Assembly (NCBI RefSeq): GCF_010470675.1
Contig: NZ_VOIQ01000007.1
Coordinates: forward strand, 55,188-119,187
Reading direction: 5' to 3'
From: Desulfovibrio sp. JC010
GTDB taxonomy: Bacteria; Desulfobacterota; Desulfovibrionia; Desulfovibrionales; Desulfovibrionaceae
Length of the DNA stretch: 64,000 nt
Shown: one piece after another, positions 30,930 through 60,913 of the stretch
Numbering within the stretch: the stretch's first letter is position 1
Layout of the letters: the number at the start of each line of letters is the position of its first letter
Translations under genes and position numbers: made by a program
The notes under the pieces: model-generated
Told to the model about the DNA's origin: nothing
Databases searched by the model: none
What the model saw: only the letters and a program-made list of their open reading frames with translations

Positions 30930-32252
30930 ATGTTTATTAAGTCGTTTCGTGCTTCAAAAGTATATGGAGTCTTGGATTTTGATGTGAAGTTTAATCGAGA
31001 TCTAACTTACTTGATTGGTGCTAATGGGAGTGGAAAAACAACTGTTTTGAAGCTTATTCATTCACTATTATCTCTTGATATTGGCGGTCTATTAAGAATC
31101 CCATTTTCTCGAATTGAACTTTGTATTGAGACAAGTAAAGAGATGAAGCTTTATTGTTTCAAATCTACAGAGAAGATAGAAATTGGTATGGGAGATGATG
31201 TTGTAAATTTTAAAGTGCCTACAATTACAAGTAAAAATAGCAGGAAGTATCGCTATGAATATGATTTTGATGATCTGTTAAGTGCTGAGGATAGAGTAGA
31301 TGTTTTTGAAATTAGAAAGAAAATTCCAAATGTTACTTTTTTAAGTTTGAATAGAACTTATTTAGGGCGGGATTTAGATCTTGATTATGAAGCAGCCGCC
31401 ATGGAGAGGTATCATTACAATAGTAGTAAACGACAAGCTAAATTCGAATCAGATAGTTTTGCGAATATAACTGATGCCATTTTTATAATTCAAGATAGTT
31501 ACAGAGTTTTAAAAGTTTATGAAGATAAGAAAAATGTTAAGTTGAGAGATAATATTTTAAAATCAGCATTTCAATATTCAGACGTTTCTTATAGCCGTTT
31601 TAAAGGTGGTAATGTCGAAGATGAAATCGCGTCAGTGTTGAACCGTGAGGTTGAAATTACAGAAGCAGTTCACTCATTAGGGTCAAAGACTGCCAGTCTT
31701 CGCAATGAAGTTGAGCATTTTTTTAAAAAACTTAAGGTACTTTATGATTCGATTCATGGAGTCGAAGAAACTGCTTTTAGTCTTGAATTGTTAATGAATA
31801 AAGCGCAGATTGATCGGTTTTTGTCTCTTATAGATATTATTGATGAACATAAGTCCACAGTCGATAAGCTCTTTGAACCAATTAATTTATTTCTTGAAAC
31901 TATAAATGAGTTCTTCCAAGATTCAAACAAATTGGTCTCAATAAATACTATTGGTCGTTTAGGTATTGTAAATAGCTATGGCGATGAAGTTCCTATTGAG
32001 GGGTTGTCCTCAGGAGAAAGACAACTTCTAGTTATTTTTGCTCACGCAATTATTAAAACTGTACGTAAGCCTTCGTATCGAAAAGGATTGTTCTTAATTG
32101 ATGAACCTGAATTGTCACTTCATATGAAATGGCAAGAGAGATTTTCTGAGAAAATTGTGGAAGTAAATCAAGGGGCTCAATTTATAATGGCTACCCATTC
32201 CCCTGAAATTGTAGGTGAAAATACTGATAAGTTTGTTGCAGTGGATGGTTAG
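30930..32252 (+). CDS. AAA ATPase, PARIS AriA-like
   Basis: 440 residues. ABC/SMC-type ATPase: Walker A at G30-T38 (GANGSGKTT), long coiled middle, signature GLSSGERQLL, Walker B with D391-E392 (LFLIDEPELSLH), and MATHSPEI switch His. Paired 2 nt upstream of a DUF4435 gene. That combination is the layout of the PARIS anti-phage system (AriA ATPase, AriB TOPRIM nuclease), in which AriA senses phage anti-restriction proteins and releases AriB. OLD-type or other overcoming-lysogeny systems are the alternative. AT-rich compared with flanking transfer genes. Confidence 0.68.
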   Translation: MFIKSFRASKVYGVLDFDVKFNRDLTYLIGANGSGKTTVLKLIHSLLSLDIGGLLRIPFSRIELCIETSKEMKLYCFKSTEKIEIGMGDDVVNFKVPTITSKNSRKYRYEYDFDDLLSAEDRVDVFEIRKKIPNVTFLSLNRTYLGRDLDLDYEAAAMERYHYNSSKRQAKFESDSFANITDAIFIIQDSYRVLKVYEDKKNVKLRDNILKSAFQYSDVSYSRFKGGNVEDEIASVLNREVEITEAVHSLGSKTASLRNEVEHFFKKLKVLYDSIHGVEETAFSLELLMNKAQIDRFLSLIDIIDEHKSTVDKLFEPINLFLETINEFFQDSNKLVSINTIGRLGIVNSYGDEVPIEGLSSGERQLLVIFAHAIIKTVRKPSYRKGLFLIDEPELSLHMKWQERFSEKIVEVNQGAQFIMATHSPEIVGENTDKFVAVDG

Positions 32253-32254
32253 TC

Positions 32255-33118
32255 GTGATGATCTTTGAAAGAAATTCAATTGCTAAAGCTACGAAGTCTA
32301 TTTTTTTTGAAAATGATAATGAAATAGATATATTTGTTGAGGATACTGCTGTTGGTTTTAAGAAATTGTATTTAACTTTGTTTAAAAGAGTTTTTGACGG
32401 TGTATATAAGGTTGAGAATGTTTATCCATTAGGGCAAAGGTCGGCAGTTTTAAATCGATGTCAAAGTGATCAAAAGCGTATAAAGCCTCGTCCTCGCTTG
32501 TATGTTGTGGACGGAGATTTAAATTTGTTGCATGGCAACTGGGATGTGCCGTGGGAAGGTTTATATCAGCTTCCTCGATATTGTATTGAAAATTTTTTGC
32601 TAGATGAACAGGCAATACTTGAAATACTTGATGAGGAAGATCCTGAACAGACTTTAGAAGATCTACGGAACCAATTTGACTTTGGTAATTGGATTAGCGC
32701 GAATAAAGAGCTTATGGTCGATTTGTTTGTCGAATATGCTGTGTCCATAGTTTTAACTCCAGAAGAGAAGACAATTAGTCTTGGTGTTAACGAATTGAAA
32801 TCAGATTCATCTGGTATTGTCGACCAATTTAAAACAACTGAAAGAATAGATTTTATAAAGCAAAGAACTATAAATAAGGCTGGTGAAGATTCTTATAGTA
32901 TAGTTAAAGAAGAGATATCCTCTATTGTCAGCGATGAAAACGTTATGCTTATCAAATATGCTTCAGCTAAGGATTACCTTTTTCCTCTTTTAAAAATATA
33001 TTTAAGAAATAAAAAGTGTGATATCAAGCATACTCAATGTAGTTTAAGGTTACGAATTGCAAAGAAGTGCAATTTGGATTGTTTGATGGACAGCATTGAT
33101 TATGTAAATGTAAACTAG
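32255..33118 (+). CDS. DUF4435 TOPRIM-like protein, PARIS AriB-like
   Basis: 287 residues. The acidic motifs of the DUF4435/TOPRIM fold are visible in order: E29 in DIFVEDTAVG, D86 and D88 in YVVDGDLN, E112-N113 in YCIENFLLD. In PARIS the AriB nuclease cleaves host tRNA when released, causing abortive infection; that function is transferred by analogy. It follows the ATPase gene with a 2-nt gap. Confidence 0.66.
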   Translation: MMIFERNSIAKATKSIFFENDNEIDIFVEDTAVGFKKLYLTLFKRVFDGVYKVENVYPLGQRSAVLNRCQSDQKRIKPRPRLYVVDGDLNLLHGNWDVPWEGLYQLPRYCIENFLLDEQAILEILDEEDPEQTLEDLRNQFDFGNWISANKELMVDLFVEYAVSIVLTPEEKTISLGVNELKSDSSGIVDQFKTTERIDFIKQRTINKAGEDSYSIVKEEISSIVSDENVMLIKYASAKDYLFPLLKIYLRNKKCDIKHTQCSLRLRIAKKCNLDCLMDSIDYVNVN

Positions 33119-33136: not shown

Positions 33137-34546
33137 ATGAACGAATATAGCCGAAGGTTGTTTTTGAAGAGTGGTATGTCATTGCTCTGTGGTTTTTCAG
33201 CCCTTACGACAAGCTCTTATGCAGACGAAAGATACATGTCCATCCCAAAAGTAAAATTCCAAAACGGCATAACAACAGCCGCCCACTACGCCAGCACTCT
33301 AAAGGAAGGATCCTTCATAGAGTTCACAGATACTGACGCCCAAAGCCGCATAATGCTGCGCGCTTATGGCTTCTACTTGGTGAACCAAACCGAGAATGGG
33401 GCAGTCTTCCATTTCTCCCCATCCCGAAATCAGGGAATAGAAACCATAGGTGGCATTCTCTACGATGACTCAAAGGTCGCAACCTATAAAATTGCTCTCC
33501 TAAAGGCTCTCGTGGACATCACATCCGGGCTGGAGAATGAACGAATCCATTATGACACTGAAGCCGAGCAGGATTATGCCTATGTGCCATATGGCCTGAT
33601 AGCCTTCAAATGGGTGGTATATTACTGGCCGCTGGTGGAAGCTTCTATCCGGCAGATATCAAGCCCGAAGATGAGTTTTGAGGACGAGCTGCTTGAGCTG
33701 CAAGAAATTTACTCCAAGATTAATAAAGTAAATCCGCTGGCGCAGTTTCAGCAGGATTTCATTGCCGGTTACAAGCCGGATAGTCCTATTTACGATGTCG
33801 TGCGCCGACTTATGCGCAGCGTGGTGACTACTATCAAAGACGGTCCTGTAGAGCATTCCGGAGCCAAGAATACTTTTGAGACATCTGATCGATTTAACTC
33901 AGGACGACTCACACGAACAAAGCGGTCTCTGTCTGATTTTGCTGGCTGCATGAAGTGCGTGCGGTTTAAGACCGGGCTGCTGTTTGAAATGCAGATGTTC
34001 GGCAGCATGATGTCTGATGCGATTGCAGTTCAGTGGGGCAATGAGTGTGTGCGGCTCCAGAAAAAGCAGAATAGAAACTTAGCGGAGATCCTTCCGTATT
34101 TATTCGTGGACGCTTTTGAAGAGCGCAACCAGAACGAGGCTCGGAACCTGATAAAAGAGATCCTGCGGCATGGCGAGAAGGTTTTCTGTATTTATTCTGG
34201 AAGCCCATTACCCAAGAAATACGACATGGATCATCTGCTGCCGTATGCGATCTTTTTCAATAACGACTTGTGGAACCTCGTTCCAAGTCTGCCAACGGTA
34301 AATAACAAGAAGTCGAACAAGATCATCACGCTGGACACCTTGGAGGAATCCAAGCCAAGGCTGTTTGATTTTTGGAACCAGACTCGCAGCGTGGCTGATG
34401 AGCAATTCTGTTCAGAGCTTGAAGCCACCTTGCAGATCGATCCACTCAAGCCGAACTGGGAGCATAAGACATTCTCAGTAGTCAGCAAGCAGGCTGAACT
34501 AACCGCAAAATTCAGGGGGTTACCACGATGGACCTACACCCCCTAG
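33137..34546 (+). CDS. HNH endonuclease-like protein with Tat-like N-terminus
   Basis: 469 residues from the ATG at 33137 (GCGGAG about 11 nt upstream). The C-terminal half holds an HNH nuclease signature: CIYSGSPLPKKYDMDHLLPY (His366), then WNLVPSLPTVNNKKSNK. The first 30 residues read like a twin-arginine signal (YSRRLFLKSGMSLLCGFSA, then SSYADE), unexpected for a DNA-cutting enzyme. A start at M34 (33236) would remove it but has a poor ribosome site. Base composition also shifts at about 33.22 kb. It overlaps the following methyltransferase gene by 19 nt, suggesting a two-gene module. Confidence 0.68.
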   Translation: MNEYSRRLFLKSGMSLLCGFSALTTSSYADERYMSIPKVKFQNGITTAAHYASTLKEGSFIEFTDTDAQSRIMLRAYGFYLVNQTENGAVFHFSPSRNQGIETIGGILYDDSKVATYKIALLKALVDITSGLENERIHYDTEAEQDYAYVPYGLIAFKWVVYYWPLVEASIRQISSPKMSFEDELLELQEIYSKINKVNPLAQFQQDFIAGYKPDSPIYDVVRRLMRSVVTTIKDGPVEHSGAKNTFETSDRFNSGRLTRTKRSLSDFAGCMKCVRFKTGLLFEMQMFGSMMSDAIAVQWGNECVRLQKKQNRNLAEILPYLFVDAFEERNQNEARNLIKEILRHGEKVFCIYSGSPLPKKYDMDHLLPYAIFFNNDLWNLVPSLPTVNNKKSNKIITLDTLEESKPRLFDFWNQTRSVADEQFCSELEATLQIDPLKPNWEHKTFSVVSKQAELTAKFRGLPRWTYTP

Positions 34547-35109
34547 AATTCTACAACGCCAACGCTGAACAATACGCTGAACAAACCATGGCGTTGGACG
34601 TCTCCCACCTTTACGACAAATTTCTCCCGCATCTACCTGCTGGAGCGCACATCCTTGATGTCGGATGTGGCTCCGGTCGTGATTCTCTCCATTTTATCAA
34701 GCAAGGCTACAAAGTAACCGCTTTCGACGGATCTCCAGAGATCGTAGAGCAAGCAAATACGATCCTGCCAATTAAGGCAAAGGTCATGCTCTTTGATGAA
34801 ATGGATTTCGCACCCAAGTCATTTGATGGCATATGGGCCTGCGCAAGCCTGCTGCATCTTATGGCGGAAGAATTGCCCGGAATGCTGAAGCAGCTACGGA
34901 CCTATCTAAAAGATGAAGGAGTCTTCTTCTGTTCATTCAAGCTGGGCAAAGGTTTGCGCACAGACAATCGTGGCCGCCGTTTTCTGGATATGAGCGAGCA
35001 AGGATTGCGAAAGGTGCTTGAAGAATGTGGATACGGCGGGATTGATGTTTTCACCAATGACGGTGTTGGTGGCGAGGTTTGGGTTAATGGGGTTGGGGGG
35101 ATGTTTTAA
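34528..35109 (+). CDS. Class I SAM-dependent methyltransferase
   Basis: 193 residues. Motif I ILDVGCGSGRDS at about residues 42-53, acidic loop VTAFDGSPE, and motif IV-like FDGIWACASLLHLM. Size and pattern resemble small TehB/UbiE-like methyltransferases and not a DNA methylase (no DPPY or NPPY). The start overlaps the HNH gene, so the two may act together. Substrate unknown. Confidence 0.8.
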   Translation: MDLHPLEFYNANAEQYAEQTMALDVSHLYDKFLPHLPAGAHILDVGCGSGRDSLHFIKQGYKVTAFDGSPEIVEQANTILPIKAKVMLFDEMDFAPKSFDGIWACASLLHLMAEELPGMLKQLRTYLKDEGVFFCSFKLGKGLRTDNRGRRFLDMSEQGLRKVLEECGYGGIDVFTNDGVGGEVWVNGVGGMF

Positions 35110-35194
35110 TGGGGCTGATTTATTTTAAAGAGAATTATAATTGATGGATATTGATTAGCTGCTTTGTGTTTGTTGTCAAAGTGAGTGGGGTTTT

Positions 35195-35911
35195 ATGTTA
35201 GTAATTCGGAATATTAGCAAGTCATTTGATGGTAATGATGTTTTGCGTGGTCTTTCGTGTTCTTTTAGTCATGGTAAAGTCGCTGTTATGGGGGCTAATG
35301 GAAGTGGAAAAACGACTTTGCTAAATATTATAAGTGGGTTTATTCATCCAGATAAAGGAAGCATTGAAGTTGATGGTCGTAACACTAGCTATGTTAGCCC
35401 TGAAAAAATTATCGATATGGGAGTAGCTAGAACCTTTCAAGATTTGCGTGTTTTTCACTCTTTAAGTGTTGAAAAAAATATTTACCTTGCGGCTAATAAT
35501 AAAAATGATGAATCCTTTATAAAATCAATATTTCCCAAAATAGATAGCATCGCTATGGAGAAAGTTAATTCTGTTATGAAACATGTAGGAATAACAAGTA
35601 TTAAAGATAGCCTTGCTGGAGAGATTTCGTTTGGACAACAAAAATTATTAACTTTAGCACTAGCTCTTGTGAATGAACCAAAAGTGCTTTTACTTGACGA
35701 ACCTGTCGCGGGGGTTGAACCTAAGTTTAGGGAAAGAATAGCTGAATTGCTTTTAAGTTATAGTGGGCTTATTTTGTTTATTGAACATGATACAAATTTT
35801 GTGAAAGAAGTAAGTGATAGAGTGGTTTTTATCAATTCTGGAAAAGTGTTAATTGAGGGGGGGTATTCGGAAGTTATGTCAAAATCAGCCGTTCAGGAGG
35901 CCTATTTGTGA
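35195..35911 (+). CDS. ABC transporter ATP-binding protein, LivG-like
   Basis: 238 residues. Walker A GANGSGKTT, Q-loop in ARTFQDLRVF, signature EISFGQQKLL, Walker B VLLLDEPVAGVEP, switch His in FIEHDTNF. The MGVARTFQ and FGQQ variants are typical of the branched-chain amino acid (HAAT) subfamily. First gene of an eight-gene operon with a second ATPase, binding protein, membrane protein, small peptide, prenyl synthase and two permeases. A TATAAT hexamer at 35136 without a clear -35 box may mark the promoter. AT-rich like the rest of the operon. Confidence 0.88.
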   Translation: MLVIRNISKSFDGNDVLRGLSCSFSHGKVAVMGANGSGKTTLLNIISGFIHPDKGSIEVDGRNTSYVSPEKIIDMGVARTFQDLRVFHSLSVEKNIYLAANNKNDESFIKSIFPKIDSIAMEKVNSVMKHVGITSIKDSLAGEISFGQQKLLTLALALVNEPKVLLLDEPVAGVEPKFRERIAELLLSYSGLILFIEHDTNFVKEVSDRVVFINSGKVLIEGGYSEVMSKSAVQEAYL

Positions 35912-36609
35912 TGGAGCCTATTTTAGAGCTTATCGACGTTGCGGCTGGATATGCTAATCGAAAAGTTCTTACTAATATTTCGTTTGATATTTCTTCTGGG
36001 GATATTGTGGTTCTTGCTGGTGCAAATGGAGCTGGAAAATCAACGATTCTTAAAGCGATCTTTGGTTTGGGTAGTGTATGGCATGAAGGTGTAGTAAAAT
36101 TTTCTGGAGGTGTGCTTGATGGAAACACTCCCGAGGATTTGATTAGAAAAGGTGTAGTGTATATACCTCAGAAGAATAATGTTTACGAAAGCTTAACTGT
36201 TTTAGAGAATTTGCAGCTAGCAAGTTTACGGACTAAGGGGGGGCAGAGTCGCAGCATTGATCAAGTTTTAGAGACGAATAATGTTTTGAATAAGAAGGCG
36301 AAGCTTGTAGCAGGCAATTTGAGTGGTGGAGAGAAGCAGTTGTTGGCTTTGGCAATGGGTTTTCTGCACTCCCCCCGGCTAGTACTATTTGACGAACCCT
36401 CAGCTGGACTTGATGTTAAAAATTTTCGTCAGTTGTTGGGGCAGATTAAGCTTCTAAATAGTACTGATAACGTGACTTTTTTGCTGGTAGAGCATCGGTT
36501 GCGTGAGGTTTGTCAGATAGCAGACTGGTTAATTGGGATTAAACTTGGCAAAGTTGAATTGATAACTAATGAATTTAACATTGAAAAATGTTTAAAACAG
36601 ATATATTAG
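35908..36609 (+). CDS. ABC transporter ATP-binding protein, LivF-like
   Basis: 233 residues (GTG 35908 or ATG 35911; AGGAGG upstream fits either). Walker A GANGAGKST, LivF-type RKGVVYIPQKNNVYESLTV, signature NLSGGEKQLL, Walker B LVLFDEPSAGL, switch His in LVEHRL. Overlaps the LivG-like gene by 4 nt. Energises the permease pair encoded at the end of the operon. Confidence 0.88.
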   Translation: MMEPILELIDVAAGYANRKVLTNISFDISSGDIVVLAGANGAGKSTILKAIFGLGSVWHEGVVKFSGGVLDGNTPEDLIRKGVVYIPQKNNVYESLTVLENLQLASLRTKGGQSRSIDQVLETNNVLNKKAKLVAGNLSGGEKQLLALAMGFLHSPRLVLFDEPSAGLDVKNFRQLLGQIKLLNSTDNVTFLLVEHRLREVCQIADWLIGIKLGKVELITNEFNIEKCLKQIY

Positions 36610-36637
36610 GATTGATATTAAAGTTAAGGGAGGAAGC

Positions 36638-37741
36638 ATGAAAAAAATTACTATTGGTGTTGTTCTGATTGCTGTTGTTGCCACTGCCTTGTTTGCTGTT
36701 GCTCAAAATAAGAAAACGCATATTGAAGAAATTAAAGTTGGAGCTATCCTTCCGCTTAGTGGAGATGCTGCAATTTATGGAGAGTATACCAAAAAAGGTA
36801 TTTTATTGGGATTGGATAAGATAAATGGGCAGTTGGCAAAAGAAAATAAAAAAATAAGTGTAATTTTTGAAGACAGCAAAGCTATGGCTCGGTATGGGGT
36901 CTCGGCAGCTAAAAAATTAATTTCCAGTGATAACGTAGTTGCTATAATTGATGATAGTGTTAGCTCTGTGACTTTAGCAGTTGCTCCGATCTGTGAAAAA
37001 AATAAGGTTGTTTTGCTTGCTACGGGGGCGACAGCTCCCGAAATTTCAAATGCGGGTACCTTTATATATAGGATTTGGAATTCTGACTCCTTAGAAGGGA
37101 AGGTGGTAGCTGATTATGCGCACGACAAATTAGGCCTTAAAGATGTAGCTATTCTTTACGTCAATAATGCTTACGGAAAAGGTTTGAAGAGCGTTTTTGA
37201 GCAAAAATTTCGGGAAAATGGTGGTTCAGTTATTGCGTCAGAAGCTTTTGACCAGGGCGAAAATGATTTTAGGTTAATACTCAGTAAGGTTGCGAAGAAA
37301 AGTCCTTCAGCAATCTATTTAGTCGCGTATCCAGAAGAAGCTGCAGGGATATTCAAGCAAGCTAAAATTTTAAATATTAATACTAAATGGATTGGAACTG
37401 TTGCTATTGCAGATAAGGCTTTGCTTGCAAAAGTTAAAGAATATGGATTTAGTCTTTACTATCCATTCCCCAGTCAAGCTGACTCTAGTAATCCCTTTGT
37501 TGCTAATTTTCTTTCCTCTTATAAGAAGAGGTACGGTCATGATGTGACGCCACTTGCCGATGTTGGATACGATAGTATAATACTTATTGGATCTTCCTTT
37601 TTAGGTACAGCTAATGGAGCAGGCGTGGACGTTAAAAAATATTTCGACAAGATGAGCGAAAGCTACATGTCTTCAGGACTGATAGAATTTGATGAAAATG
37701 GTGATGTTAATAAGCCTATAGAAATCAAAAAAGTTGACTAG
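36638..37741 (+). CDS. Periplasmic binding protein, Leu/Ile/Val-type (Peripla_BP_6)
   Basis: 367 residues behind a strong GGGAGG. Signal peptide or uncleaved anchor (TIGVVLIAVVATALFAVAQ, no lipobox). Type-1 binding fold: IKVGAILPLSGDAAIYGEYT, AVAPICEKNKVVLLATGATAP, VAILYVNNAYGKGL, the usual sequence landmarks of LivJ-class proteins. Family ligands range from amino acids to amides, urea and aromatic acids, so the ligand cannot be assigned; the operon context suggests something unusual. Confidence 0.87.
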   Translation: MKKITIGVVLIAVVATALFAVAQNKKTHIEEIKVGAILPLSGDAAIYGEYTKKGILLGLDKINGQLAKENKKISVIFEDSKAMARYGVSAAKKLISSDNVVAIIDDSVSSVTLAVAPICEKNKVVLLATGATAPEISNAGTFIYRIWNSDSLEGKVVADYAHDKLGLKDVAILYVNNAYGKGLKSVFEQKFRENGGSVIASEAFDQGENDFRLILSKVAKKSPSAIYLVAYPEEAAGIFKQAKILNINTKWIGTVAIADKALLAKVKEYGFSLYYPFPSQADSSNPFVANFLSSYKKRYGHDVTPLADVGYDSIILIGSSFLGTANGAGVDVKKYFDKMSESYMSSGLIEFDENGDVNKPIEIKKVD

Positions 37742-37749
37742 GTTTTAAG

Positions 37750-38802
37750 ATGAGTCCACAAAATATTTTGTTTCACTCTACAGTAAGTGTTTTTGCAAAA
37801 ATTGCGTCAGCTTTAGAGAATAGAATGTTTAAATTGGTCTTCTCTGTTTTTTTCTCTATTTTTGTAACATATATACTCCATAAAGTTAAATTAATGGATT
37901 ATGTTCAAATCAATATATCTCATGATAGCTGGAATGGGTTTTATTCTGATGTTATCCTGACGGTATTTGTGATGTCAGTTATCCATAATTTATTGTCGTT
38001 GTGTTCAACCTTATGCGTAAGCTTTTATCATTTTAGAATGAAGACAAAGCATCGCAAGTCTGCTCAAAGTTTCTCAAGTCAGCTAATGTCTAGTAATAAT
38101 AGGTATTTAATTAAGTCTTTTGATTTCATACATCAAAAGATATTTGAGACTACTTACAACGGTAGTAGTCAGGGAATGGTTTTAAATGAGCCTTTAAACG
38201 TTTCATTGAAAAATATTGATAGTGGCGCGGCTATTAGCACCGATATGTATTATAGCATGCTTGGAGTTGTAGTAATCCAGAAACCCAAAAATGTTCTTGG
38301 CATTTGGGATCTAGACATACTCCCAATCGAAAAGGCTGACAGTCCTATCGAAGGTGTAGCAGATGATGTTTCGTTTGGACCTTCTAGACCTGTCCGTTTT
38401 AACGTTGATGAACAGGGTATAGTTACCCATGAATTGCGTCATGCCTGCGTGTTTAATAATTATACAGGAATGTACGAGTGTGTTGAGCAGAATAGTTGCG
38501 ATAGAATTTTTCTTCATTCATGGGATTGCAGTGTTCTTGACGATGAGCTTGCCAAACTTGCTCCTTTTGTTGAGTACCTTAAGAAAGAATGGAAACTCCG
38601 GGATGTGTATTTTTTAAATAAGAAAATGATGAGTGAACCTTTAAAGTTATCAGATGGAATATTACTTGATGAAAAATACTATCTCAGCCGCAATGGCGAG
38701 GAGAAAGTAGTGTTTAACAGTGATGCTGTAGATGTAGCAAAAGATATACGTGACTTGTTAAGTAAAAGAACACCAAACCTTCATGGTAAATTTATAAATT
38801 AA
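37750..38802 (+). CDS. Unknown two-TM membrane protein with Cys-rich domain
   Basis: 350 residues, no recognised family. TM segments at about 28-46 (KLVFSVFFSIFVTYILH) and 68-92, then a basic loop and a soluble domain of about 240 residues. This contains an HExxH sequence (H227-E-L-R-H231) followed by several Cys (CVFNNYTGMYECVEQNSC, then WDC). The HExxH could be a zinc protease site, but surrounding residues look more like beta strand than helix, so chance is possible. It lies inside the Liv-like operon, 8 nt after the binding-protein gene, directly before the small peptide gene. Confidence 0.6.
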   Translation: MSPQNILFHSTVSVFAKIASALENRMFKLVFSVFFSIFVTYILHKVKLMDYVQINISHDSWNGFYSDVILTVFVMSVIHNLLSLCSTLCVSFYHFRMKTKHRKSAQSFSSQLMSSNNRYLIKSFDFIHQKIFETTYNGSSQGMVLNEPLNVSLKNIDSGAAISTDMYYSMLGVVVIQKPKNVLGIWDLDILPIEKADSPIEGVADDVSFGPSRPVRFNVDEQGIVTHELRHACVFNNYTGMYECVEQNSCDRIFLHSWDCSVLDDELAKLAPFVEYLKKEWKLRDVYFLNKKMMSEPLKLSDGILLDEKYYLSRNGEEKVVFNSDAVDVAKDIRDLLSKRTPNLHGKFIN

Positions 38803-38812
38803 GGTGGAAATA

Positions 38813-39007
38813 ATGGGACAGATGTTTTTAAAAGATAAACCAAGTAATGCGTTGTCAGATAAATCAAAAGACAAGAAGGATAGCATGGGGGCTTTAGTAA
38901 AAAAACATAAATATCGTAAGTTAAGTTTTTCTGGTGATGAACTTGTAGGGATGCTTTCAGATGCAGGTGACTTAAAGAAGCATTTGTGCGATGATTATAC
39001 CACATAA
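38813..39007 (+). CDS. Small 64-aa peptide gene in the prenyl-synthase operon
   Basis: Starts at the ATG at 38813 with AAGGTGG 6 nt upstream, a good ribosome site. Strongly basic first half (SDKSKDKKDSMGALVKKHKY), a middle GDELVGMLSDAGDL helix, and one Cys at position 59, six from the end (LCDDYTT). No signal peptide, no Trp. The end overlaps the prenyl-synthase start by 17 nt. Such a peptide next to a prenyl-synthase-fold enzyme recalls the ComX-ComQ arrangement, but there is no sequence match and the idea is only a hypothesis. Confidence 0.6.
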   Translation: MGQMFLKDKPSNALSDKSKDKKDSMGALVKKHKYRKLSFSGDELVGMLSDAGDLKKHLCDDYTT

Positions 39008-39923
39008 TATATTAAAACATGCGGAGAAATTGCTCAATTTTGAGAATGAAACCGTCCATATGTTGACTTTGCTTTATGGGATGGCAGTGAAAGATGAAGA
39101 TGATAACTTTCATCTTGAGGTAGCGAAAACAATTGAATTACTTAAGACTTCAGCCCTTACAATGGATGATTTTTTGGATAAGTCGTCTATGAGAAATGGG
39201 GTTGAGTCTTTTTTTTCGGCTTATGGTTCAGAAACGACTGTTTTGTTTTCTGAGATATTAAAGTCAACCGCTAGTTTGAAATTTAATGACCTTGTATATG
39301 AGTTCTCACCACATAATTTAAAAAAAGCTAACGCTATTTTTGAAGAAACGTACAGGGCTATCTGTTTAGGCCAGTTGTTGGATATTGAGCTTGAGAAAAG
39401 AGTGTTGTCTTATGATAGTCCGACTCTTGATGAATGCTTGAAGGTTGTGGAGTTCTCTACTGCTTCTTTTATTCAGATGCCGCTTGTTCTGGGTGGAATA
39501 TTGTCGGATAAAGATCACGATACTATTAGTGGTTTTTCAGATTTTGGTTACAATATCGGTATGGCTTATCAGTTGCGGGATGATGTTATTGACTTTGTTG
39601 GTGACACCGCAAGGATAGGAAAACCTAAATATGGAGATTTAATTCGTAAAAAGAAAAAGGCTATTTTGGCTATATTAAAAAACTCACTAAGCGATTCGGA
39701 ACTAAATGGTCTGTGTGCAATTTATAATTCTCCTGAAGAAGTTAGCAAGGAAGACCTTGACTATATGTTAGGCCTCATTTCAAAATATTCCGCTGTGGAT
39801 AGAGTTAAGGATCTTGTTAAGGAGTACTGTGCTAAAGCTCTCGATAGTTTAGATAGAGATAAATTTAGTGTTAATGAAATTTCTGATTTTAGAGAATTGT
39901 CTTCAATGGTTTCATCTTTCTAG
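38991..39923 (+). CDS. Isoprenyl diphosphate synthase homologue
   Basis: 310 residues. Both Asp-rich motifs are present: D59-D60-F-L-D63 followed by MRNG (normally RRG), and D197-D198-V-I-D201 (YQLRDDVIDF). The N-terminal GGKxxRP isopentenyl-diphosphate-binding motif cannot be found: there is no Arg before residue 68. So substrate choice may differ from chain-elongating synthases; ComQ-type peptide prenylation or a terpene-related role are options. It lies between the peptide gene and the permeases, an unusual place for this enzyme. Confidence 0.78.
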   Translation: MIIPHNILKHAEKLLNFENETVHMLTLLYGMAVKDEDDNFHLEVAKTIELLKTSALTMDDFLDKSSMRNGVESFFSAYGSETTVLFSEILKSTASLKFNDLVYEFSPHNLKKANAIFEETYRAICLGQLLDIELEKRVLSYDSPTLDECLKVVEFSTASFIQMPLVLGGILSDKDHDTISGFSDFGYNIGMAYQLRDDVIDFVGDTARIGKPKYGDLIRKKKKAILAILKNSLSDSELNGLCAIYNSPEEVSKEDLDYMLGLISKYSAVDRVKDLVKEYCAKALDSLDRDKFSVNEISDFRELSSMVSSF

Positions 39924-39937
39924 ATATATTAACAATA

Positions 39938-40807
39938 ATGCAATTTTATCTTAATTTATTATATACATTTTCAATTGTGTATCTTGGTGCAATATCTTTC
40001 TGGATTGTCTACCGTCCGTCTAATATTTTGCACTATGCTCATGGTGCCTCTTTTGTTTTAGGAGGATATTTTCTTTCCTCATTATATTTAGGGCTAGGCC
40101 TACCGCTTTTTATGAGCTTACTTCTGTCTTTGTTAGCTGTTGCACTGATCGGATCTTCTTTTTATTCTTTTTTCTATAAGCCTCTACTCAGTTATGACAA
40201 TAATTTAAGTTTATTAGTGTGCTCATTAGGTCTGTATATTGCAATTGTCGCTTGTGTGGCAATATTTTATGGAAGTGGCACGACTCATTTAGATGAAACG
40301 ACTACTGTTGTTGGTATTGAAGTTCTTGGAGGATATATTTCTTCGGTTCAAGTTATATCTGTTTGTATTGCTTTTTTTGTGTTGCTTCTTTTGAAGATAT
40401 TTATGTCATATAGTCCTTATGGGTTATATTTTCGTGCTGTAGCTGATGATAGTATTTTGAGTTATATATACGGTTTACCTCGTGAAAAAGTTATTGTCAC
40501 GGCATATGCCTTCGGTTCAGGGCTTGCAGGTCTTGTTGGGATTTTAGTCGGTTTTGATTCAGGTATGAGACCAACGATGGGATTCTCCTCGCTATTATAT
40601 AGCGTGGTGGCTATGATCGTTGGAGGAGGCTATAGTGCTGGAGGGGTGCTTTGTGGGGCTGTTTTAGTCTCATTATTACATAATTTGGTTGGATTTTATT
40701 TTGATACAAAATGGATTGATACTGCTACGTTTTTTTTACTCGTTTGTTTTTTGATAGCCAAGCCTAAAGGTGTTTTTGGGGTGACTTTAAAAAAGGTAGA
40801 AATATGA
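39938..40807 (+). CDS. ABC transporter permease, LivH-like
   Basis: 289 residues, about eight TM segments. LivH-family pattern: an N-terminal YRPSNILHYAHGASFVLGGY helix, FRAVADDSILSYIYGL cytoplasmic loop that contacts the ATPase, and SSLLYSVVAMIVGGGYSAGG near the end. Inner membrane half-channel of the importer. No clear ribosome site, 14 nt after the synthase stop; overlaps the next permease by 4 nt. Confidence 0.86.
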   Translation: MQFYLNLLYTFSIVYLGAISFWIVYRPSNILHYAHGASFVLGGYFLSSLYLGLGLPLFMSLLLSLLAVALIGSSFYSFFYKPLLSYDNNLSLLVCSLGLYIAIVACVAIFYGSGTTHLDETTTVVGIEVLGGYISSVQVISVCIAFFVLLLLKIFMSYSPYGLYFRAVADDSILSYIYGLPREKVIVTAYAFGSGLAGLVGILVGFDSGMRPTMGFSSLLYSVVAMIVGGGYSAGGVLCGAVLVSLLHNLVGFYFDTKWIDTATFFLLVCFLIAKPKGVFGVTLKKVEI

Positions 40808-41664
40808 TGGCATATATTGAGCATTTGTTTGTTATGATTTCTATATATGCATTGCTCGGGCAGAGTTTGAATTTTTTTTCTGGATTTACTGGGTTGATCT
40901 CAATTGCACATGCAAGTTTTTTTGGTATAGGTGCCTATAGCTCTGCCTTAATAACTATACATTATACTGATTCTTTTTTTGTTAACATTTTACTGCCATC
41001 CATACTTACTGGCTGCATTTCGTTCGTTATTGCTAGAATTAGTTTAAGGTCTTATGAAGACTATTTCATTTTGATGACTCTTGGCATTCAAATCGTTCTT
41101 TTCTCTTTGTTTAATAACTGCACTGCATTAACTAATGGTCCGATCGGCATCTCAGGTATAAGTAATTTTTCTACTGTTGAACAATTCATCCCCCAACCGA
41201 TATTAATTTTTCTGTGTTATTTGTTTTTTAGTACAATTATGATTGTAATCTCACGCTCGTCTTGGGCATTGAACCTAAAAGGCATTAATGATGATGAGAT
41301 TTTAATGTTATCGTTAGGGAAGAATGTTCAACTTATCAAAGTTACAGCTTTTACATTTAGTGCAATGACTGCTTCGGTGGCAGGGGTCTTATATGCCCAC
41401 TATATGACATACATAGATCCCTCAAGTTTTTCTCTCGATGAGTCAGTATTTATCGTAGCTATAATGGTTCTTGGGCGAGGGAGCTATGCTGGTATTTTTC
41501 TTTCAGCTACTTTTATGATTATGCTTCCCGAGTGTTTACGTTTTATAGGGTTGTCTGGTTTTGATGAGGCTAACATCAAACAGTTAGTGGTTGGAATGAT
41601 GATCGTTGGTGTTGTATTTTGGGGTAAGCTATCAAGTCGTTTAGCTGTTTGGAAAGTAGCATAA
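40804..41664 (+). CDS. ABC transporter permease, LivM-like
   Basis: 286 residues, multiple TM segments. LivM pattern: GQSLNFFSGFTGLISIAHAS near the N-terminus, GINDDEILMLSLGKN coupling loop, FTFSAMTASVAGVLYAHYM, and the MVLGRGSYAGIFLSA helix. Completes the importer. No coding sequence follows for 497 bp. Confidence 0.87.
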   Translation: MMAYIEHLFVMISIYALLGQSLNFFSGFTGLISIAHASFFGIGAYSSALITIHYTDSFFVNILLPSILTGCISFVIARISLRSYEDYFILMTLGIQIVLFSLFNNCTALTNGPIGISGISNFSTVEQFIPQPILIFLCYLFFSTIMIVISRSSWALNLKGINDDEILMLSLGKNVQLIKVTAFTFSAMTASVAGVLYAHYMTYIDPSSFSLDESVFIVAIMVLGRGSYAGIFLSATFMIMLPECLRFIGLSGFDEANIKQLVVGMMIVGVVFWGKLSSRLAVWKVA

Positions 41665-41866
41665 GTATCGTTCAACTGTCGCAGTTCATCAATTCTACAA
41701 AACTATAACTGACCTCACTCTTTTTTCTTTCTTTGTGAACCATTGAAGTATAAATTCAAATCAGGAGCAGCACCGCTTTAATCCTTTCTTTCAGGGCAGC
41801 TCCAGCCCCTTTCAAATTGCATCTTATTGCCATACCGAGTTGGACTCTAATTTAACAAGAATTTTT

Positions 41867-41930
41867 AAGACGCAAACAGTATTCAGCGAGAATTATCAAG
41901 AACAAACAATACTCACCAAGAACCAACAGT
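41867..41930. repeat. Three short direct repeats in the pre-mob non-coding region
   Basis: Copies of AAGAaCaaACAgT begin at 41867, 41898 and 41918 (for example AAGACGCAAACAGT, AAGAACAAACAAT and AAGAACCAACAGT). Spacing 31 and 20 bp. Could be protein-binding sites of an origin of transfer or a promoter. Confidence 0.5.
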
Positions 41931-41972
41931 AATAATTAAATAAATTGAAATTTTTCCGCTAAATCGCTTATA

Positions 41973-42080
41973 CTCCTGCGGAGTCCGAAGGCAGGACAGG
42001 TAAGGTAGGCCCACCTTTTCAAGGTGGTCTCCCTTACGTCCTGCACAGCCTTAGGGCTGAGGTTGGCTTATTCGCCTTCG
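41973..42080. other. Long hairpin in non-coding region: candidate oriT
   Basis: Nested inverted repeats: GCAGGAC (41991) with GTCCTGC (42038), GTAAGG with CCTTAC, and CCACCTT-TTC-AAGGTGG at the tip, about 20 bp of stem in total. CTCCTGCGGAG lies just before it and AGCC-TTA-GGGCT just after. It is in the only long gene-free stretch near mobC and the relaxase, which makes an origin of transfer plausible; a structured RNA is the alternative. The 41665-41866 part shows nothing notable. Confidence 0.5.
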
Positions 42081-42161
42081 GCTCAACGTATGTTGCTAAC
42101 GAAATTCAGGACTGCTGAATTTTGCGCTGGTATCAACTGTAAACTATATGGAGTATATGAG

Positions 42162-42989
42162 ATGAGTAAAAAAGGTTTTAAAAACAAAGAAGTGACAACG
42201 GTTGTGGAGTTGGTGATGGAAAACAATCAGCCCATGGTTTCTTCCTTGTTAGTGGCTGAGTTGTTTGAAAAACAGCACAAAGATGTTCTGAAGGCTATCC
42301 GTAATCTTGAAATTCCAAACGATTATTGCGAGCGCAATTTTGCGCCCACATCAATTGATGTAGCTCAGCCAAATGGAGGAATCAGAAAAGAACCCTCATT
42401 CAACATGACCCGTGACGGATTCTCCCTTCTCGCCATGGGGTTTACCGGCAAGAAGGCTATGGAGTGGAAAATTAAATTTCTTGAAGCTTTCAACGCAATG
42501 GAAGCTAAACTGACGGTCCCGCCGGTGGAGGGGAACATTCAGTATAAGAAGGCAGCTCCGGAGGCCGTGCGATCATTTGAAGGTGTTGCGCGTTACTGGT
42601 GCTTTTTGGAAGGGATCAGTTGGGAGCAGGGCAAAAGGCAGATTGAAGGGGCTATCCGTGTTCCGGATCTTTATGAAATGGATGCCTTGGCCATGAGCAG
42701 TGCATGGACGTATCTCAGGATATGCATGCAGGTTGTTCCTCCTAAAATGCGCGGCAAGGATATCTGCTCCAAAGAGGAATTGTCTCCGGTCAACGGGCTG
42801 CTTGATTATTGGGCTTATTGTGGCCAATCCACTCGTGACGATCTGCTTGCAAATTTATGTGGAGACATGTGTATTGAATCACTGGATGATCTGCCTAAAT
42901 CTTATATTCCCCATGCCGTCAGTCTTGTCTGGGAAGGCATTAACAATGAATCCGGTAGAAATAATGCCAAGCAAGAAACAAGTCATTAA
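42162..42989 (+). CDS. Rha-family phage regulatory protein
   Basis: 275 residues from the ATG at 42162 (GGAG 8 nt upstream). The N-terminal Rha domain is clear: PMVSSLLVAELFEKQHKDVL, ending MTRDGFSLLAMGFTGKKAME with WKIKFLEAFNAME. The C-terminal 150 residues have no recognised domain. Rha proteins are phage and element regulators that interfere with growth in some hosts. Here the gene is just after the candidate oriT and overlaps mobC, suggesting control of mobilisation genes. Confidence 0.85.
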   Translation: MSKKGFKNKEVTTVVELVMENNQPMVSSLLVAELFEKQHKDVLKAIRNLEIPNDYCERNFAPTSIDVAQPNGGIRKEPSFNMTRDGFSLLAMGFTGKKAMEWKIKFLEAFNAMEAKLTVPPVEGNIQYKKAAPEAVRSFEGVARYWCFLEGISWEQGKRQIEGAIRVPDLYEMDALAMSSAWTYLRICMQVVPPKMRGKDICSKEELSPVNGLLDYWAYCGQSTRDDLLANLCGDMCIESLDDLPKSYIPHAVSLVWEGINNESGRNNAKQETSH

Positions 42990-44897: not shown

Positions 44898-44969
44898 AAT
44901 TCATTCCTATATTGACTTCTTTCTTTATATTCACCTATGGATATAGGGAATAATAATGGAGTCTGTATT

Positions 44970-46037
44970 ATGGAAAATGAATTAAATTTTGAAGATGTTG
45001 AAGGTTCGGAAGAAAGTGAACACGTGCAGTATGATATTGCATCATATCCTTCTGACTTAACACTCTCCGGTATAAATGAAATGTGGGACCGCGAGGCATT
45101 GGTGATACCCAAATTTCAAAGAAAATTTGTATGGAAAATTTCTCAAGCTTCACTGCTTATTGATTCGTTTTTAAGCGGCTTACCTGTTCCTCCTATTTTT
45201 TTGTATATTAATCGCAAAAATGAAAATCTTGTCATTGATGGGCAGCAACGGATTATGTCTATTGTTTATTTTCTCAATGGCTATTTTGGACAAGAGGATT
45301 CCAAATCAAGGAAAAGAGTTTTTCGTCTTAAGCTCTCTGAAGGACATCCATACAATAATATGTCTTTTGAAGATCTTCCTGACGACGAACAACGCAAATT
45401 ACAGTATTCTACAGTTCTGCGTGCGATTAACATTAAACAGTTAGACCCAGATGATGAGGGGTCGAGTGCTTATCATATTTTTGAAAGATTGAACACTGGT
45501 GGTACTCCGCTGAGTTCTCAAGAAATTCGTAACTGCGTTTTTGAGGGTGCCCTTGCGAATAAACTTGTTGAAATGAATAAGGATGAGGATTGGAGGAAAA
45601 TTTTAGGCCGAGAAACTCCTGATGCACACCAGAAAGATGTTGAGCTTCTGTTGCGTTTGTTTGCCTTTTACGAAAACAGGGAAAATTATGAAAAGCCCAT
45701 GAAAGAGTTTTTAAATAAAGCAATGAAGCGGCATCGTAATGCTGGAAGTGAAATAGTCTCTCGTTTTGAAAAATGTTTTTATGATGTGACAGCAGAAATA
45801 GTGGAACATTTAGGAGAAAAACCTTTTCATGTTAGAGGGCCATTGAATGGATCTGTGCTTGAGTCTGTAATGACGTGGTGTCTTTTGAATTATGATGATT
45901 ATGATGGTGAAATAAAAAAATCCTTCAAGGAAATGAAAACAGATCCATCTTTTGCTCCACTGACAACAAAAGGAACAACAGATACTAATACTGTTGCACA
46001 ACGCTACGCATTGGTTAATAAATATTTTTTGAGATAA
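44970..46037 (+). CDS. DUF262 protein (GmrSD/ParB-like nuclease fold)
   Basis: 355 residues from the ATG at 44970 (GGAG 8 nt upstream). DUF262 motifs: IPKFQRKFVWK, VIDGQQRI, and FERLNTGGTPLSSQEIRNC. DUF262 domains form the GmrS-like half of modification-dependent restriction enzymes and are common in defence islands. No GmrD-like DUF1524 domain is seen. The next gene, 9 nt away, encodes a HEPN-type protein, so they are probably a pair. AT-rich. Confidence 0.83.
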   Translation: MENELNFEDVEGSEESEHVQYDIASYPSDLTLSGINEMWDREALVIPKFQRKFVWKISQASLLIDSFLSGLPVPPIFLYINRKNENLVIDGQQRIMSIVYFLNGYFGQEDSKSRKRVFRLKLSEGHPYNNMSFEDLPDDEQRKLQYSTVLRAINIKQLDPDDEGSSAYHIFERLNTGGTPLSSQEIRNCVFEGALANKLVEMNKDEDWRKILGRETPDAHQKDVELLLRLFAFYENRENYEKPMKEFLNKAMKRHRNAGSEIVSRFEKCFYDVTAEIVEHLGEKPFHVRGPLNGSVLESVMTWCLLNYDDYDGEIKKSFKEMKTDPSFAPLTTKGTTDTNTVAQRYALVNKYFLR

Positions 46038-46046
46038 TTGGTAGTT

Positions 46047-46556
46047 ATGCCTTATTCAGCTAGGTTTACGCATGCAGATGATTTAATCGCAGATATTAGT
46101 AATCTACAGAGATCTTCTGAGCCTATGCTAAAGTCTAAATATGCCGGTGTGGTTTCGGTGCTAGCGGCAAGCGTCTATGAGTGTGCAGTAAAGAAAATAC
46201 TTCTTTCTTTTGCTAGGTCACGAGACCAAGTTTTTTTTAATTATGTGCAAAAGAGTTTTTCAAAAATCAATGCTAGAATCGCGATAAAAAGTCTTAAAAA
46301 TGATTATTTAAAGAATTTTGGTGATGCGTATAGAGATGCATTCAGTGATTTGCTGGAGACTGAAGATGATTTGTATTTGAGGAATACAGGGAAAAGCATA
46401 ACCAGTTCATATTCAAACTTAATTATTTGGAGACATGCTTTTGTTCACGATGCAGAATGTCCCATTAATGCGACGTTAGAGGAAGCTATTGAAAGTTATG
46501 AGCTGGGGAAGAAAGTTATTGAGTGCTTTTATGTTAGCACTACTTCTATTTCATGA
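46047..46556 (+). CDS. HEPN-like protein (RiboL-PSP-HEPN type)
   Basis: 169 residues from the ATG at 46047. Helical protein with an R-x4-H sequence (RHAFVHD), the RNase signature of HEPN domains, and the SVLAASVYECAVKKILL helix typical of the RiboL-PSP/MAE_28990 group. Likely an RNase toxin or RNA-binding effector working with the DUF262 protein. Confidence 0.68.
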   Translation: MPYSARFTHADDLIADISNLQRSSEPMLKSKYAGVVSVLAASVYECAVKKILLSFARSRDQVFFNYVQKSFSKINARIAIKSLKNDYLKNFGDAYRDAFSDLLETEDDLYLRNTGKSITSSYSNLIIWRHAFVHDAECPINATLEEAIESYELGKKVIECFYVSTTSIS

Positions 46557-59773: not shown

Positions 59774-60913
59774 CTAATTACAGGTGGTCAGCACCATTAC
59801 CCGTCCGTATCCGGCGGGAGGCGATACCCATGTGTCAGTAACGTCTTTGATGCGCAGATGAACGCGCCAGTTGTCGCCTTCGTCCGTCGCCCATGACTGG
59901 ACGGCAACGAAGGCCTGCGACTCTGCACCCTCGGCAAATACAGCCGGGGCCACGAAAATCTGCGGAACTGAAGTCACGCCCGGGGGGCAGGTCGGTTTGG
60001 GGATCAGCTCACCGTCTGAAGCGTAGGTGGCATCTTTGAAAAGCTGGGAATTGCCGGTGTCGGCGAGGATCTGCGGTTCGCCTTCACGGCAGATGTAAAG
60101 ACCAACTGCAGGATCAAAGAAGATACGTCCTTCTTTCTCCGGATCTCCGCAAAAGCCGGTCGCATCGATGTCGGCGATGGTGTGCTCGTCGAATTGGATT
60201 TCCTTCACATTCTCAATGGCGTGATCGGTCATGTCCAGCTCAGTGGACATTTCGTTCAACTCAGGATGGCCGGGAACTTCCACGCGATAGAGGAAGTCTT
60301 GGCTGAGATCTCCTTCACGCAGGAAAGCGCGACCACCGATGTGGCCGGGGCTGGGAACCGGAATGTTGGTTCCGGCAAGATTGACGGTCCAACCTCCGTA
60401 GGAGCCGCGCAGCTCGGTAGAGCTTTGACCGGGAAGATCTCCGGTGGGGATGTAGCCCCCGGCACCGCCGACCATAGCCGCAGCTGACGGAGCAGAAGCA
60501 GTGCCGAAATGTTTGTCATTTGCGGCCGTGCGTCCGCCATAGGTCAGGACGATGACTTGCAGGTCGTCCGCGTTGGGTTCGAGCACGTAAATTCCGTACT
60601 GCTGGCCCCAGCCGTTGCGATCTTGGAATCCGGAAGGCAGGAAGTTTCCGGAGCGGAGCTGGGCCATGGTCACAGCGGTGGCACTGCTGGCCGTGGAAGA
60701 GCTGATCAGATCTGCATAATGTTCCTTGGCATAGTCGGAAGCCGCATCAAGGACAGTGGCAAGATGCTTGCTGACACTCTTCTGCTTGATATTTTCAAAG
60801 CCTTGGTGCTGCATGTTTGAGAGCATTGGTGAAATCACGGCAAGGATGAGTAATGCCGCAAGAGCATCCATCATGCCGAATCCGGATTGTTTATTTTTAG
60901 GATTGATTTTCAT
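59774..60913 (-). CDS. pilV: Thin-pilus tip adhesin PilV
   Basis: 379 residues. Prepilin-like N-terminus KQSGFGMMDALAALLILAVI, cleavable after Gly11; residue 5 of the mature chain would be Asp, where pilins usually have Glu. The shaft region resembles R64 PilV (DRNGWGQQYGIYVLEPNAD, FLREGDLSQDFLYRVEVPGH). The C-terminal receptor-binding part ends in GRVMVLTTCN. No shufflon repeats or rci recombinase gene are seen here. Confidence 0.86.
   Translation of the reverse strand: MKINPKNKQSGFGMMDALAALLILAVISPMLSNMQHQGFENIKQKSVSKHLATVLDAASDYAKEHYADLISSSTASSATAVTMAQLRSGNFLPSGFQDRNGWGQQYGIYVLEPNADDLQVIVLTYGGRTAANDKHFGTASAPSAAAMVGGAGGYIPTGDLPGQSSTELRGSYGGWTVNLAGTNIPVPSPGHIGGRAFLREGDLSQDFLYRVEVPGHPELNEMSTELDMTDHAIENVKEIQFDEHTIADIDATGFCGDPEKEGRIFFDPAVGLYICREGEPQILADTGNSQLFKDATYASDGELIPKPTCPPGVTSVPQIFVAPAVFAEGAESQAFVAVQSWATDEGDNWRVHLRIKDVTDTWVSPPAGYGRVMVLTTCN

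Follow-up and report, generated by a model that had tools for sequence, protein, structure and literature searches.

Peptide prenylation is known from enzymes of the trans-isoprenyl diphosphate synthase (trans-IDS) type such as ComQ and PalQ, each encoded beside the gene of its precursor peptide (PMC5331326, PMC13290415, PMC10853753; for all papers cited here, our statements follow the part of the text available to us). Trp is the target of every characterised peptide prenyltransferase of this type (PMC13290415), of which ChrPC is a third example. For ComQ, the second aspartate-rich motif must read NDxxx or GDxxx if Trp is to be prenylated, and DDxx(D) is unsuitable (PMC5331326). PalQ, however, keeps the aspartates in this motif and is Trp-specific (PMC10853753); hence, an intact second motif alone does not exclude peptide prenylation. 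Kinases belong to the ComQ and PalQ clusters, and the available text names no importer in them (PMC5331326, PMC10853753). Here, we describe an eight-gene operon at positions 35195-41664 on the + strand of a 64,000-nucleotide stretch of DNA from Desulfovibrio sp. JC010 (contig NZ_VOIQ01000007.1, positions 55,188 to 119,187; hereafter the window, in which all positions are given). It lies in the cargo part of an integrative and conjugative element (ICE) and joins a complete Liv/HAAT-type ATP-binding cassette (ABC) importer to a trans-IDS-like enzyme which, judging from its active-site residues, probably transfers a prenyl group to an acceptor other than isopentenyl diphosphate (IPP).

The eight genes form one tight operon and one mobile module, as seen from their spacing, their composition, and the borders derived from a sibling ICE. 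The intergenic distances are, in order, -4, 28, 8, 10, -17, 14, and -4 bases. All eight genes are AT-rich, with a GC content of 0.347-0.396 and of 0.244-0.343 at third codon positions, and the flanking HNH, methyltransferase, Rha, and relaxase genes have a GC content of 0.457-0.500. As the neighbouring cargo genes for AriA, AriB, an NsnA-like protein, and a HEPN protein are equally AT-rich (0.330-0.364), low GC alone is not distinctive of the operon. Chance open reading frames (ORFs) or mis-called genes were ruled out by spacing, composition, and codon score. Along the operon, the Pfam assignments are PF00005 twice, PF13458, none for a 350-aa protein, none for a 64-aa peptide, PF00348, and PF02653 twice. 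An earlier sequence-only reading of the window had given the position, strand, and gene content of the operon, which ORFs and Pfam confirmed, and had described close-set or overlapping AT-rich genes that form one mobile operon in ICE cargo, which our data (gaps of -17 to +28 bases) bear out. A promoter scan gave 19 sites (shuffle mean, 24.0) and a terminator scan five (5.6 in shuffles), in neither case an excess, and no Rfam element reached the gathering score within 34500-42500.

The enzyme gene is located at 38991-39923 (+ strand), and its product matches PF00348 with 126 bits (cut-off 27). We aligned it with two ComQ sequences and 25 other synthases, two of the latter from its own genome (n = 28). 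The ComQ rows (L053 and L054) were so named from adjacent ComX matches, that of L054 being barely above the Pfam cut-off (25.5 versus 25 bits). A third ComX locus (L052) had no synthase ORF within 2.4 kb and therefore no alignment row; L008 and L009 were excluded as duplicates of L048 and L047, and L007, L010, L055, and L088 were unused. The scored aspartates (D1, D2, and D5) of the first and the second aspartate-rich motif (DDFLD and DDVID) are kept, as is the Gln before the second motif. GGKRxR and RR are the IPP-binding residues of trans-IDS enzymes. At the K, R, and R of GGKRxR, the window enzyme has E, T, and H, and it carries N in place of the second R of RR. Each of four residues, namely the first K and the last R of GGKRxR, the second R of RR, and the K of the KT motif, is kept in 24 of the 25 other synthases, the exception being L051; the middle R of GGKRxR is R in 22 of them, K in two, and I in one. 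Both ComQ rows lack the same IPP-site residues as the window enzyme, and both keep the K of KT. The N-terminal region of the enzyme is short, and its match to a profile built from 24 synthases begins only at position 50 of 324. As the first Arg occurs at residue 68 or later, with none before, the loss of the IPP site is independent of the alignment. From these residues, we infer that the enzyme binds an allylic diphosphate and lacks the usual mode of binding IPP. The likeness to ComQ put forward by the sequence-only reading is partial: the synthase fold and the loss of the IPP site agree, but the second motif is DDVID and not NDxxx or GDxxx.

Searched against 348 genomes of the class (E<=1e-22), the enzyme retrieved itself and a single other match, with 82.6 bits. 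Among 395 genomes of the phylum (E<=1e-20), it retrieved itself and matches in 18 others (best other match, 87.9 bits), and among 204 of a second phylum, a match of 82.1 bits in one genome. There were 141 plasmid records, with identities of at most 29.2% among the best 30 of 141, and 26 phage records at E<=1e-3; viral contigs gave no match, and one scan of genome contigs gave three weak loci. The matches in genomes, plasmids, and phages are taken as ordinary synthases, part of them having been read individually. One plasmid match (H1, an unannotated Phocaeicola record) was dismissed, as its GGKR is intact and its neighbours, read by eye, are ordinary housekeeping genes. The IDS-like protein L051 from Chloroflexota, which is also without the IPP residues, was rejected as a counterpart: its gene lies beside pgk and tpi (by eye), and the stretch around it, L056, had no tblastn match to the operon proteins, the enzyme included, at E<=0.01. 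This Chloroflexota gene, at 9442-10467 of L056, has a degenerate first motif and has lost most IPP residues, and represents another non-canonical member of the family.

The peptide gene (38813-39007, + strand) precedes the enzyme gene and shares 17 bases with it. The peptide is basic, has 64 aa, and ends in CDDYTT; it contains no Trp, and its likely nucleophiles are the single Cys59, Tyr34, and Tyr62. By eye, the gene has a ribosome-binding-like AGGTGG. Its codon score is +0.37 bits per codon in frame, while three other readings give -0.66, -0.89, and -0.54. No Pfam family matched at E<=1, ComX (PF05952) included, and neither did plasmids or viral contigs. As the synthase profile matches the enzyme only from its position 50 and the 64-aa frame overlaps the start of the enzyme, the peptide could be a detached N-terminal part of the enzyme, left by a gene split or frame change, instead of a separate product. 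We regard this as very improbable. Against the synthase profile, the peptide scored -1.9 bits, which is within the range of shuffles (321 of 500 scored, 211 of those as high or higher), so that the split has no sequence support, and the peptide gene has its own ribosome-binding-like site.

The sequence-only reading also considered a ComX-like signal. The enzyme would prenylate the peptide, the mature signal would leave the cell, and the Liv importer would take it back. We consider this improbable, since the peptide has neither Trp nor a ComX match, and since HAAT binding proteins accept small ligands. Moreover, no exporter, kinase, or response regulator was recognised by Pfam among the eight operon genes, the two-transmembrane (two-TM) protein being without a family match. 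The loss of the IPP site is common to the enzyme and ComQ, and the small peptide gene overlaps the enzyme gene, the ComX precursors of six Bacillus strains being similarly small, with 53-58 aa; the motif DDVID, on the other side, stands where ComQ needs NDxxx or GDxxx (PMC5331326). We favour a role of the peptide as partner or acceptor of the enzyme over one as a free pheromone, since the operon has no recognised exporter for it.

The importer gene set is complete by Pfam, with one PF13458 binding protein, two PF02653 permeases, and two PF00005 ATPases, and is split around the genes for the two-TM protein, the peptide, and the enzyme. All genes are on the + strand. The ATPases are LivG/UrtD-like (35195-35911; Walker A GANGSGKT and signature SFGQQ, by eye) and LivF/UrtE-like (35908-36609; GANGAGKS and LSGGE, by eye). 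The periplasmic substrate-binding protein (36638-37741; Peripla_BP_6, HAAT type) has an N-terminal hydrophobic segment at residues 4-22 and, more weakly, another at 100-118 by hydropathy, which also gives eight segments for the LivH-like permease (39938-40807) and six for the LivM-like permease (40804-41664). For these proteins, the NCBIfam models UrtD, UrtE, UrtB, LivM, and a branched-chain binding protein rank at or near the top, each with a score below its cut-off. When the binding protein was aligned with LivJ (1z15), Ser79, Thr102, Asp121, Tyr150, and Tyr202 were matched, and Glu226 was replaced by Val. We take Glu226 of LivJ to be the amine ligand. Hence, the ligand of the importer may be other than a plain α-amino acid.

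LivM matches at E<=1e-25 were found in 123 of 148 relatives' genomes, the own genome included, and the others, among the matches listed, are 30-37% identical, which makes the importer a divergent member of a common kind. With no close relative of the importer found, we turned to the 11 best other LivM loci, which share 32-37% identity with the operon LivM; no synthase match was found in short stretches around them, nor in three longer LivM stretches (16-17 kb, L041-L043), all of which are too distant to decide on the unity of the operon. The nearest LivM relative (L041, 7993-12012) adjoins an ABC ATPase gene and two genes that by eye belong to carboxynorspermidine biosynthesis, and is perhaps a polyamine-linked importer. 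Many plasmid records matched the binding protein and LivM, all below 60% identity, and no viral contig matched the binding protein or either permease.

A complete importer would also suit metabolic cargo. It would then supply the cell with a small carboxylate or amide, the enzyme would serve a metabolic route as a prenyl synthase or prenyltransferase of nearly ordinary type, and the peptide and the two-TM protein would be accessory. The host genome already has 11 further PF02653 matches besides the two of the operon and two other synthase matches, so that an extra set is plausible as cargo. As no catabolic enzyme was recognised in the operon and the enzyme has lost its IPP site, we think this explanation unlikely.

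The 350-aa protein (37750-38802, + strand) has two TM segments by hydropathy, at residues 26-44 and 64-82, and no Pfam family match. It contains one HELRH at residue 227, a weak hint of a zinc metalloprotease (HExxH in a zincin fold), as the motif was picked after being seen and HExxH also occurred in 281 of 20000 shuffles. In 98 relatives, the protein matched only itself. Besides the protein itself, two weak matches in the 395 phylum genomes (E 3e-4 and 7e-4) contain internal stops and were dismissed as chance, and no match was found in plasmids, phages, viral contigs, or PDB sequences.

Our best explanation, which we hold tentatively, is an ICE cargo cassette that couples the complete Liv/HAAT-type importer to prenyl transfer. 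The enzyme would ionise an allylic prenyl diphosphate from the host, such as geranyl, farnesyl, or geranylgeranyl diphosphate (GPP, FPP, or GGPP), and would then transfer its prenyl group to a molecule other than IPP. This acceptor could be Cys59 or Tyr62 of the overlapping peptide, or else the ligand taken up by the importer; the two-TM protein would keep the product at the membrane or process it there. Four points weigh against this explanation. Firstly, the enzyme has S in place of the K of KT, which is kept in nearly all other synthases and in both ComQ rows, so that donor binding may be altered too. Secondly, the enzyme does not join ComQ in the tree; its end branch is very long (6.61), which makes its position unsure. 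Thirdly, the peptide has no Trp while the characterised trans-IDS-like peptide prenyltransferases act on Trp. Finally, no second copy of the operon was found by which conservation could speak for the co-membership of its genes. The searches behind this last point covered the class, phylum, and second-phylum genomes with the enzyme, and plasmids, phages, and viral contigs with several proteins; no second operon was found in them, and the same gene order in other ICEs or genomes, for which the sequence-only reading had suggested a search, was likewise not met with in these genomes or in 20 sibling ICE stretches. The cassette DNA had no match in plasmids.

The window encodes a relaxase, NikA, a coupling protein, and TrbI, which identify the setting as an ICE. 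Relaxase matches at E<=1e-60 occur in 38 of 197 genomes; within the genus, 15 of 17 genomes have one, counting the own genome, where the relaxase matches at four places. Three further relaxase matches in the own genome, on contigs 10, 19, and 21, are 71-81% identical; hence, several members of one ICE family seem to share this genome. The conjugation region also encodes a Shufflon_N-domain protein (59774-60913, - strand). To place the cassette borders, we used 19.9-kb stretches of 20 sibling copies (L068-L087), each with its end in the relaxase gene or close to it. Shared DNA starts at 41,850-41,961 in 13 of the 20 (ten of these were re-aligned, with the same outcome) and at 42,964-42,973 in seven (L074-L078, L080, and L081). 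Sibling L068 shares the HNH and methyltransferase genes from 33,939, the start of its stretch, to 35,089; sharing resumes at 41,914, and 16.6 kb of other cargo lie between the shared flanks. As L068 shares both flanks and not the interior, the operon fills one cassette at about 35,090-41,913. No tblastn match to the eight operon proteins was found in the 20 sibling stretches at E<=1e-6. Movement via a short direct repeat was rejected, as the border regions have a single shared word of at least 9 bases.

The cargo on both sides of the cassette includes defence genes. An AriA/AriB-like pair (PARIS, with a DUF4435 protein as AriB) at 30930-33118 is followed by the HNH gene at 33137-34546. Beside the relaxase, at 44937-46556, a GmrSD_N protein matching the NsnA and PD-T4-2_A models precedes a RiboL-PSP-HEPN protein, and the two probably form a second defence pair. 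From the sibling-slot ORFs with 150 aa or more that lie no further than 9 kb from the border, we scanned one large ORF for each sibling, namely the largest one for 19 siblings and the second largest for L086. PADLOC matches at E<=1e-30 were found in 12 of the 20 slots: type I restriction or methylase in L068, L070, L073, L084, L085, and L086, DndD/Pbe in L069, RT-Cas1 in L071, SoFic in L078, type III restriction in L079, C3a139/DrmD in L082, and Avs4 in L087. The scanned ORFs of L072, L074-L077, L080, L081, and L083 had no match at this threshold. A Rha match is present in nine siblings (L068-L073, L079, L083, and L086), seven of which have a PADLOC match. When all 100 slot ORFs were scanned, families such as DUF554, SpoIIE, Fe-ADH, and DsbD_TM, presumably not defence families, were also present.

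With the cassette between the PARIS pair plus HNH gene and the GmrSD/NsnA-like plus HEPN pair, and with this frequency of PADLOC matches, both overall and in the Rha-matching siblings, an uncharacterised anti-phage or competition system deserves consideration. In such a system, the importer and the two-TM protein would sense or position, and the enzyme would act on the prenyl diphosphate pool of the host or modify a molecule when triggered. However, the four operon proteins in the scan (binding protein, two-TM protein, peptide, and enzyme) had no PADLOC match at E<=0.1, eight of the 20 sibling ORFs are unmatched, and the slots also hold such other families. Furthermore, we know of no defence system that includes a full importer. 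We therefore treat the link of the operon to the defence genes as association only and rate a defence function as rather unlikely, if a serious candidate.

What the operon adds is a candidate function in an ICE cargo slot that has an anti-phage match in 12 of 20 siblings. The sibling slots themselves form a rich ICE cargo of restriction, DndD/Pbe, RT-Cas1, SoFic, C3a139/DrmD, and an Avs4-like protein. With its emptied IPP site, intact second motif, Trp-free peptide, and full importer, the operon further offers a direct biochemical test of other acceptors for the trans-IDS fold. In its most far-reaching form, which is a speculation of low probability, the enzyme would be the first trans-IDS-like prenyltransferase with an acceptor beyond IPP and Trp (Cys59, Tyr62, or an imported ligand), tied to its own ABC importer, spread by an ICE through an often anti-phage slot, and perhaps itself part of a defence or competition module. 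The kinds of components are already known; the combination of genes and the active-site pattern are new within what was searched. In agreement with the sequence-only reading, no such operon was found described in the open-licence literature (titles and abstract openings, for part of the matches). A comQXPA census lists relatives in Bacillus and Clostridiales genera, and its available text gave no lead to the operon (PMC4008528).

ComQ/ComX is the first system to be set beside the operon. Both have an enzyme of the same trans-IDS family with the first aspartate motif kept and GGKRxR and RR lost, and in both a peptide gene adjoins the enzyme gene. Gene order is no difference, as the peptide gene comes first in the operon and in L053 and second in L054. 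The operon enzyme differs by DDVID instead of NDxxx at the second motif, and its peptide is without Trp, whereas ComX has a Trp near the C-terminus. No kinase (ComP) or regulator (ComA) was recognised among the eight genes, and an importer is present.

PalQ/PalX, a Paenibacillus system of a ribosomally synthesised and post-translationally modified peptide (RiPP), was compared by description, as far as the available text goes. It shares a trans-IDS-like enzyme, the aspartates of the second motif, and an adjacent small peptide. PalX combines an NHLP leader with a C-terminal Trp, whereas the operon peptide has its CDDYTT end, no Trp, and no Pfam match, and the three-gene PalQ cluster has a histidine kinase, of which none was recognised in the operon (PMC10853753). 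The polyprenyl transferase cargo of Family 2 encapsulins (NF041169) is the best NCBIfam match of the enzyme, with 137 bits, far under the cut-off of 450; unlike in that system, no encapsulin was recognised among the operon genes. With the Liv/HAAT importers (LivJHMGF and UrtABCDE), the operon shares PF13458, two PF02653, and two PF00005 proteins. It differs from them in its order, which is ATPase, ATPase, substrate-binding protein, the three extra genes, permease, and permease.

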